Assembly: GCA_030652115.1 (NCBI GenBank)
Contig: JAUSBK010000001.1
Location: forward strand, 120,254-184,253
DNA: 64,000 bases
Origin: Coriobacteriia bacterium
GTDB taxonomy: Bacteria; Actinomycetota; Coriobacteriia; Anaerosomatales; Anaerosomataceae
Direction of reading: 5' to 3'
The translations under genes were made by a program, and so were the position numbers. Below, one piece after another: positions 62,410-64,000 of the stretch. The notes beneath the pieces were generated by a model, which made no database searches, was not told the origin of the DNA, and saw only the letters and a list, made by a program, of their open reading frames with translations. Positions within the stretch are counted from its first letter, which is position 1; the number at the start of each line of letters is the position of its first letter.

Positions 62410-62479
62410 CGCAGTCCCTCCAAGTCAGTGCCCCGGCGCAGGGCCGGGCACAAGCCTGGCGATTATAGCGGCGTCAGGA

Positions 62480-63115
62480 TTCCGGTGTCAACGCATTGCT
62501 GCTTGCGAGGGGTGGATTCGAATGGAAAAGTGCCGGGCCTCACGCTCATACTCGCTCAGGAAAATAGTATGAAATCTGTGGATAGTGTGGAAAACGCAGG
62601 ACTCAAGCGTGTCGGGCCTGTGGATAACCATATTCGGCGCGTTGTTGGCGCAGCATCCCCTCTGCTACAATCAGCGCCACTCGAAAGGGAGGCGATTGGC
62701 GCTCGTTAGTGGCGGAAACCGCAGGTCAGAAGCTTACACCTGTGATGCTCCGTAGGAGTACAGGGAGTCCGTCGCCGTTGGTTATCCACAGCATCAGGAT
62801 TGACCCCGAATCACCATTGACAGTCTAGCGAAGATTTCCACAGCACGGATCCGGTTCTCCACCGGTCCAGGTGTCCCGGAAAGCCATTCCATGGTCTCGG
62901 AACGCCTTCACCTGCGTGTTCGACCGGTGTTCGATGGTTCGTGCGGAAAGCTTATCCACAAGTGTGGAAAGTATTGTGGAAAACGTGAGAAACGCCTGTT
63001 CATAGCGTGTCAGGCGCAACGGCTCAAGTGGTGCAGGAGGCTTCTGGACACGGCTTCTACCAGGCGTTTCTCCAACATGTTGTATGTGGATTGTTGTGTG
63101 GATGAACGCATCGTC
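62480..63115. other. chromosomal origin oriC with DnaA boxes
   Basis: The 700-base gap between rpmH and the next gene has three perfect DnaA boxes: 62619-62627 (minus), 62782-62790 and 62952-62960 (plus), all TTATCCACA. One-mismatch copies lie at 62577-62585, 62586-62594, 62975-62983 and 63097-63105. An AT-rich run near 62559-62577 could be the unwinding element. TACAAT at 62666 with TTGTTG 18 bases before may be a promoter. No gene is credible inside. Confidence 0.88.
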
Positions 63116-63126
63116 AAGGGGTGAGT

Positions 63127-63945
63127 GTGAAGTCTTTCTATGACCAGCGGGACCCGGCCGCCCGGATCATCCCACCTGATGAGCGGCCGCTTTCGACCGC
63201 GAATCCAGTGTCGTTTGGGACAACCGCGCTTGTCGCGGTTTACGACGCGCTCACAGCTCCGCCCCGTGTGGAGGGGGTGAGTGGTGACTCGGCACGGGAT
63301 CTCATCGAGAACCTCACCACTCGCGCGTACCAGGTGTCACACGAGGCGGGCGGGCAGATCCCCTACACGGTCATCCGCGAGATCGTCGAGAACTTCATCC
63401 ATGCTGGGTTCGACGAGGTTGTGGTGAGCGTCCTTGATCGGGGACAGACGCTCCGGTTCGCAGACCAGGGGCCGGGCATCCCCGACAAGACACGTGTCTT
63501 CCTCCCGGGCTTCACGACTGCCTCTTCGGATATGAAACATGTGATCAAAGGTGTGGGCTCGGGCCTCCCTGTGGCAAGAGAGTGCCTAACATTCTCGGGT
63601 GGAACGATAGAGATCGACGACAACCTCGGTGCAGGGACTGTTGTGACCCTGCGTATGACCTCGCCCGTTCAACCTGCCGAGATCGAGCCGGAGTTCGACC
63701 GACAGACCGAACCATACGAGCCGCCGGAGTTGAGCCTTCGCCAGAAGCAGGTGCTCTCCCTCGCGATGGAGTTGGGCTCACTCGGCCCGACGGTCGTCGC
63801 CCGTGAGCTCGGGGTGGGGTTGTCCACTGCTTTTCGCGATCTCGAGCACCTGACCAGCCACGGCCTCATCACAGCCGACAACGCCGGCAAGCGTGTTCTG
63901 ACCGACCAGGGTGTCCAGTGCCTCGATGCGCTCTTCCGGAGATAA
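63127..63945 (+). CDS. GHKL ATPase-winged helix protein next to oriC
   Basis: 272 residues from a GTG at 63127, five bases after AAGGGG; a GTG six bases earlier is also open. The middle (about 80-180) is a HATPase domain: EIVENFIHAGF (N box), FADQGPGIPD (G1), GVGSGLPVAREC (G2) and GAGTVVTLRM. No HisKA or phospho-His is present. The last 70 residues form a winged helix with VARELGVGLSTAFRDLEHL. An anti-sigma-like or nucleotide-responsive DNA-binding regulator is likely. Between oriC and dnaA, 15 bases before dnaA, it may control dnaA or origin firing. Confidence 0.78.
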   Translation: MKSFYDQRDPAARIIPPDERPLSTANPVSFGTTALVAVYDALTAPPRVEGVSGDSARDLIENLTTRAYQVSHEAGGQIPYTVIREIVENFIHAGFDEVVVSVLDRGQTLRFADQGPGIPDKTRVFLPGFTTASSDMKHVIKGVGSGLPVARECLTFSGGTIEIDDNLGAGTVVTLRMTSPVQPAEIEPEFDRQTEPYEPPELSLRQKQVLSLAMELGSLGPTVVARELGVGLSTAFRDLEHLTSHGLITADNAGKRVLTDQGVQCLDALFRR

Positions 63946-63960
63946 GGTGGCGATTCGCTG

Positions 63961-64000
63961 ATGCTTGACGTTCAGCAGGTCTGGCAGGACACCCTCGATG
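63961..64000 (+). CDS. dnaA: chromosomal replication initiator DnaA, first codons
   Basis: Only 13 codons (MLDVQQVWQDTLD) are in the window; the W-Q-x-x-L pattern fits the DnaA N-terminal domain, and the place beside oriC and rpmH supports it. AAGG lies 13 bases upstream. The gene runs off the right edge. Confidence 0.82.
   Translation, partial: MLDVQQVWQDTLD

Follow-up and report, generated by a model that had tools for sequence, protein, structure and literature searches.

SpoIIAB, RsbW and RsbT have a compact GHKL ATPase domain, lack a winged helix and are located in sigma-factor operons; the N box of the SpoIIAB/RsbW proteins and of the GHL ATPases has an E...N arrangement, where histidine kinases have N...N. 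In the structure 3LMM (DIP2311 of Corynebacterium diphtheriae) a winged helix comes after a GHKL domain; DIP2311 is a COG2865-type regulator (AlbA_2-HATPase_c_4-wHTH) and carries an N-terminal domain of the AlbA_2/Schlafen type. We know of no link between COG2865-type regulators and dnaA. SeqA, Hda, YabA, SirA, Soj, Spo0A, CtrA, MtrA and AdpA have in common with the protein described below its proposed role at the origin or at dnaA; we know of no GHKL ATPase with a winged helix among them. Initiation control in Actinomycetota outside the Streptomyces and Mycobacterium lineages is, as far as we are aware, almost unstudied.

The window analysed here is a stretch of 64,000 nucleotides from a Coriobacteriia bacterium (contig JAUSBK010000001.1), and coordinates refer to it unless a locus is named. 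Near its right end lies a gene for a 272-residue protein that combines a GHKL ATPase domain with a predicted winged helix and stands directly before dnaA. The features of this gene and its neighbour are:

63127..63945, + strand: gene for the GHKL ATPase-winged-helix protein, 272 aa (open reading frame with ribosome-binding site; HATPase_c match; alignment of 41 orthologues)
63376..63405, + strand: N box REIVENFIHA, residues 84-93 (alignment, conservation)
63463..63480, + strand: G1 box DQGPGI, residues 113-118 (alignment, conservation)
63550..63570, + strand: G2 box GVGSGLP, residues 142-148 (alignment, conservation)
63736..63939, + strand: predicted C-terminal winged helix, residues 204-271 (AlphaFold2 secondary structure and pLDDT, conservation, wHTH matches in relatives)
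63961..64000, + strand: start of dnaA, which runs past the end of the window (whole gene at L007:4215-5582)

The open reading frame (63121/63127-63945, + strand; stop codon 63943-63945) is a real gene. Translation starts at GTG 63127, for which AAGGGG at 63116-63121 is a good ribosome-binding site; the proteins of close relatives share this start, at the same MKSFY-type residue of the ortholog alignment. The stop at 63945 and the ATG of dnaA at 63961 are separated by 15 nt, the distance given in the preliminary description; the ribosome-binding site overlaps the stop region at this junction, and no terminator was found between the two genes. Downstream the order is dnaA, dnaN, recF, gyrB, gyrA. 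On the left, as read from the list of open reading frames, the minus strand carries rpmH, rnpA, yidD, yidC, jag, rsmG, parA and parB; rpmH, rnpA, yidC and parA were the tblastn queries for the neighbourhood.

In the Pfam search HATPase_c covers residues 80-177 with an E-value of 1.2e-11, better than the Pfam cut-off, and its N, G1 and G2 motifs, which contain the Mg-binding Asn, the Asp of G1 and the glycines of G2, place the protein in the GHKL ATPase superfamily. The three boxes are intact, as had been claimed from the sequence: E85, N89, H92, D113, G115, G117, G142 and G146 are invariant in 179/179 orthologues, and G144 is kept in 178 of the 179. The ATP site includes a catalytic-type glutamate, and conservation of the motifs suggests that the protein binds or hydrolyses ATP. 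PF02518 is the sole HATPase family matched; HATPase_c_2, the model used for RsbW-like proteins, is not matched. No Pfam or NCBIfam model supplies a family name, and the NCBIfam matches are to histidine-kinase, NifL and similar models only, all far below their cut-offs. The assignment stays with the generic HATPase_c, and not with a known anti-sigma or two-component family. We found no second copy in the same genome, where the remaining matches (E 5e-6 or worse) cover the HATPase part only and lie inside larger open reading frames.

An AlphaFold2 model built from 41 orthologues (mean pLDDT 85) leaves residues 1-31 unstructured and mostly of low confidence, followed by the GHKL fold and then the winged helix. 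In this model residues 204-271 form a winged helix of three confidently predicted helices plus a wing, with pLDDT 94-98 except in the last helix. This agrees with the C-terminal domain proposed in the preliminary description, and wHTH Pfam families are matched by 30-35 of the 41 orthologues; the HTH_IclR match of the window protein itself is weak (20.4 bits, cut-off 22). The presumed recognition helix comprises residues 232-244, with R237 conserved in every orthologue covering that position, and the winged helix is kept in all groups, even where a low-complexity linker stretches the protein to about 300-500 residues. At the N-terminus (63127-63220) a short conserved F-[FY] motif (KSFYD, ARDFYPFVE) lies ahead of the disordered linker and looks like a putative docking peptide for a partner protein.

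The top full-length Foldseek match is 3LMM (E 1.6e-7 over about 280 columns), with histidine kinases ranking after it. Both proteins have a GHKL domain and then a winged helix; however, the TM-score is only 0.47-0.49 and the rmsd about 11 Å, so that the domain arrangement differs. DIP2311 is also longer, with about 555 residues in the structure against 272 in the window protein, in which the AlbA_2 domain of the COG2865 regulators has no Pfam match and the N-terminal 31 residues are unstructured. 3LMM was not among the matches listed in the profile-level sequence comparison. The open-licence literature that we searched contained no description of such a GHKL-winged-helix origin protein, in keeping with the initial impression that no origin regulator of this make-up had been described.

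Searches covered the phylum Actinomycetota. Nearly all of the 199 sampled Coriobacteriia genomes have a match, the strong matches being orthologues, and a profile search recovered full-length orthologues in most of them. Across 296 genomes of the phylum the profile search gave 106 strong orthologues, with 18 family-level groups outside the class represented and both domains conserved at full length in these 18 groups. In every fetched Coriobacteriia locus in which dnaA was located, the order is rpmH (minus strand), intergenic region, GHKL gene, dnaA, dnaN; the fetched examples from outside the class have the same order, and in some closed genomes the record starts with dnaA and ends with the GHKL gene. 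An independent search for dnaA yielded 86 orthologue-bearing genomes with a listed dnaA, one of which (G403) is split over contigs. In the 85 evaluable genomes, with both genes placed on one contig, the GHKL gene lies directly before dnaA in 85/85 and was never located anywhere else. The scattering of homologues away from dnaA that would have spoken against the original proposal is therefore not seen, and within the class the adjacency holds in every fetched locus with a located dnaA.

No recognisable orthologue was detected in 28 genomes of the class; 18 of these also have no full-length dnaA, so that their origin is probably unassembled. In seven of the fetched class genomes (L209-L215) and in one genome of family f36 (L205), rpmH and dnaA occur without the GHKL gene, and the loss of this gene in several genomes means that it is not universally required. 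L205 (G212), which has lost the gene, and L173 (G240), of the same genus, which keeps it, form a natural pair in which to compare how dnaA is regulated. In families without the gene, the rpmH-dnaA spacing is only 230-870 nt where rpmH adjoins dnaA at all.

The region upstream of the gene contains the following features:

62410..63126, no strand: putative bipartite origin, upstream half; also 5' leader of the operon of the GHKL gene and dnaA (DnaA-box cluster, footprinting, GC-skew change)
62586..62594, - strand: DnaA box TTTTCCACA
62619..62627, - strand: DnaA box TTATCCACA
62642..62671, + strand: conserved promoter candidate TTGTTG-N18-TACAAT with extended -10 (TGC) (conserved column block in 18 relatives; a consensus match only)
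62716..62729, + strand: repeat motif site 1, AAACCGCAGGTCAG, just 3' of the promoter candidate
62782..62790, + strand: DnaA box TTATCCACA
62907..62920, - strand: repeat motif site 2
62952..62960, + strand: DnaA box TTATCCACA
62975..62983, - strand: DnaA box TTTTCCACA
62990..63003, + strand: repeat motif site 3
63056..63069, - strand: repeat motif site 4

The 64-kb window has five strict DnaA boxes (TTNTCCACA), and all of them fall within 62410-63126, just upstream of the GHKL gene, where 0.01 would be expected in a shuffled region of the same size, and the GC skew changes sign around 60-64 kb. The gene is therefore beside a box cluster, as first noted. Its placement between oriC and dnaA needs revision: the dnaA-dnaN gap (L007:5583-5809, beyond the window) holds a DnaA box and then a CTATTACTACTACTG-type element beside an AT-rich stretch. 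Conserved across the class, this arrangement resembles the DnaA-trio unwinding element and is likely to act as the unwinding element of this origin. The origin is thus probably bipartite, with the GHKL gene and dnaA between its halves. In Coriobacteriia and several other Actinomycetota, a conserved ACCTGC element precedes the DnaA-trio-like element by roughly 40 bp; it occurs beside the unwinding site with or without the GHKL gene and is possibly an origin element not yet described. In loci of the Coriobacteriales type (L045-L116), the canonical box TTATCCACA is nearly absent from the intergenic region between rpmH and the gene, which has TTTTCAACA-type boxes instead, and the DnaA of these loci has diverged strongly from that of the window (about 27-36 percent identity).

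The promoter candidate is oriented towards the GHKL gene and dnaA, and its extended -10 recurs in further families. No riboswitch or other known RNA element was matched by Rfam in the 450-nt leader. Upstream of the gene a conserved motif, AAACCSCWGGTMA, is present in four copies; the 14-bp motif (consensus AAACCSCWGGTMRR) occupies nearly identical four positions in close relatives and gives 71 matches in 23 sequences against 0.7 in shuffles. A motif trained on site 4 alone still recovers 38 upstream sites against 5.9 in shuffles, so that the repeat is no fitting artefact. On the footprinting evidence we considered the motif as a proven operator of the GHKL protein, and later downgraded this assignment. 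Coriobacteriales-type loci keep the gene without the motif array, and in a test for correlated loss, three of the gene-less loci (L209, L210, L214) have no motif site and two (L205, L211) have one weak match each, the gene-bearing relatives of L211 having two to three. Perfect single copies near dnaA were found in the gene-less L195, L212 and L213, and four matches in the gene-less L215. Since the motif also occurs in a few gene-less genomes, it is not yet assignable as the operator of the GHKL protein, and it may be the site of a more general actinobacterial origin factor.

The 13-mer of site 1, AAACCGCAGGTCA, recurs exactly at L187:2496-2508 and at positions 3001-3013 of L189, L190 and L191; in L187, L190 and L191 a tRNA 3' end or att-like repeats lie next to it, with identical flanks. 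A regulon elsewhere was rejected, as the exact off-origin copies adjoin a tRNA end, att-like repeats or coding sequence, and none of them lies upstream of a recognisable replication gene.

Three other readings of the gene were weighed. The many histidine-kinase CA domains among the structure matches, together with HATPase_c as the best family match, could suggest a degenerate orphan histidine kinase or another two-component part. We regard this as highly improbable and already largely refuted, and reject the identity on the missing DHp domain and the model scores: the Pfam and NCBIfam searches gave no DHp/HisKA match, the AlphaFold2 model shows no helical domain of this kind ahead of the GHKL domain, and the protein has neither a dimerisation and phospho-acceptor module nor a receiver partner. 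Histidine-kinase models among the matches listed reach about 15-30 bits, where their cut-offs are 240-1200, and the first N-box position is an invariant glutamate, not asparagine. The absence of a histidine-kinase module noted at the outset is thereby borne out. The same N box, E85...N89, is shared with SpoIIAB-type and GHL ATPases, and with the GVGSGLP G2 box (of the GxG-G-LP type), a short lid and a compact GHKL domain it points to a SpoIIAB/RsbW/RsbT-like protein kinase or switch, which would use ATP to phosphorylate a partner such as DnaA, a STAS protein or a sigma factor, or to sequester it, with DNA binding serving only to position the switch. An hhalign comparison with SpoIIAB gives a probability of 74 percent and an E-value of 2.7e-5, a distant profile similarity. 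Against this, no anti-sigma or STAS partner gene adjoins the GHKL gene in any fetched locus, the neighbours being rpmH and dnaA; the Pfam match is to PF02518 and not to HATPase_c_2, and the top full-length structure match is a GHKL-wHTH regulator, with histidine kinases next. We consider such a switch unlikely.

The position of the gene may also have little to do with its function. Few gene orders in bacteria are as conserved as that of the rpmH-dnaA-dnaN region, and a regulator with targets elsewhere, or a generic DNA-binding factor, could sit beside dnaA in an old frozen neighbourhood with no role in replication. That the gene can be lost and that the origin motif is not tied to it are consistent with this. 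However, gene-less relatives keep rpmH beside dnaA with nothing between, which makes the GHKL gene an insertion retained at exactly one spot in many families, and we judge a frozen neighbourhood to be a rather weak contender, if slightly less so than the switch.

On balance, we favour an ATP-responsive DNA-binding regulator that is co-transcribed with dnaA and exerts nucleotide-dependent control of the dnaA promoter or the origin. The GHKL gene would be the first gene of the dnaA operon and would encode an ATP-binding, DNA-binding protein that binds the leader and origin region upstream of its own gene, probably as a dimer. Whether ATP or ADP is bound would determine its DNA binding or shape, and this nucleotide-dependent binding would set transcription of the dnaA operon and, through the same DNA, origin firing. 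The dnaA-regulator reading draws on the 85/85 adjacency and the full-length conservation of both domains in the 18 outside groups; on the invariant ATP-site residues and H92 in 179 sequences and the conserved R237; on the 15-nt gap, the ribosome-binding site overlapping the stop region, the lack of a detected terminator and the single genomic copy; and on the conserved promoter candidate followed by the repeated motif at fixed positions. We count against it the motif in the gene-less L195, L212 and L213, the independence of the ACCTGC element from the gene, the Coriobacteriales-type loci without the array and the loss of the gene in some relatives. The preliminary description raised the possibility that ATP state is coupled to expression of dnaA or to firing of the origin, which fits the anatomy of the protein. 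More tentatively, and with rather less expectation that it will hold, we suggest a class of replication regulators that is new and would be ancestral in deep-branching Actinomycetota. Produced from the dnaA operon, a GHKL ATP sensor joined to a winged helix would bind a site array around the operon promoter and the DnaA boxes, and the energy state of the cell would thereby directly control dnaA expression and the firing of the origin.

Taken together, the GHKL-winged-helix protein is a strong candidate for a new kind of DNA replication regulator. Its anatomy is that of an ATP-dependent DNA-binding switch within the dnaA operon, and many families of Actinomycetota, Coriobacteriia of the human gut included, have kept its gene at the origin. 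If it does control dnaA or the origin, it would represent a new molecular class of initiation regulator.
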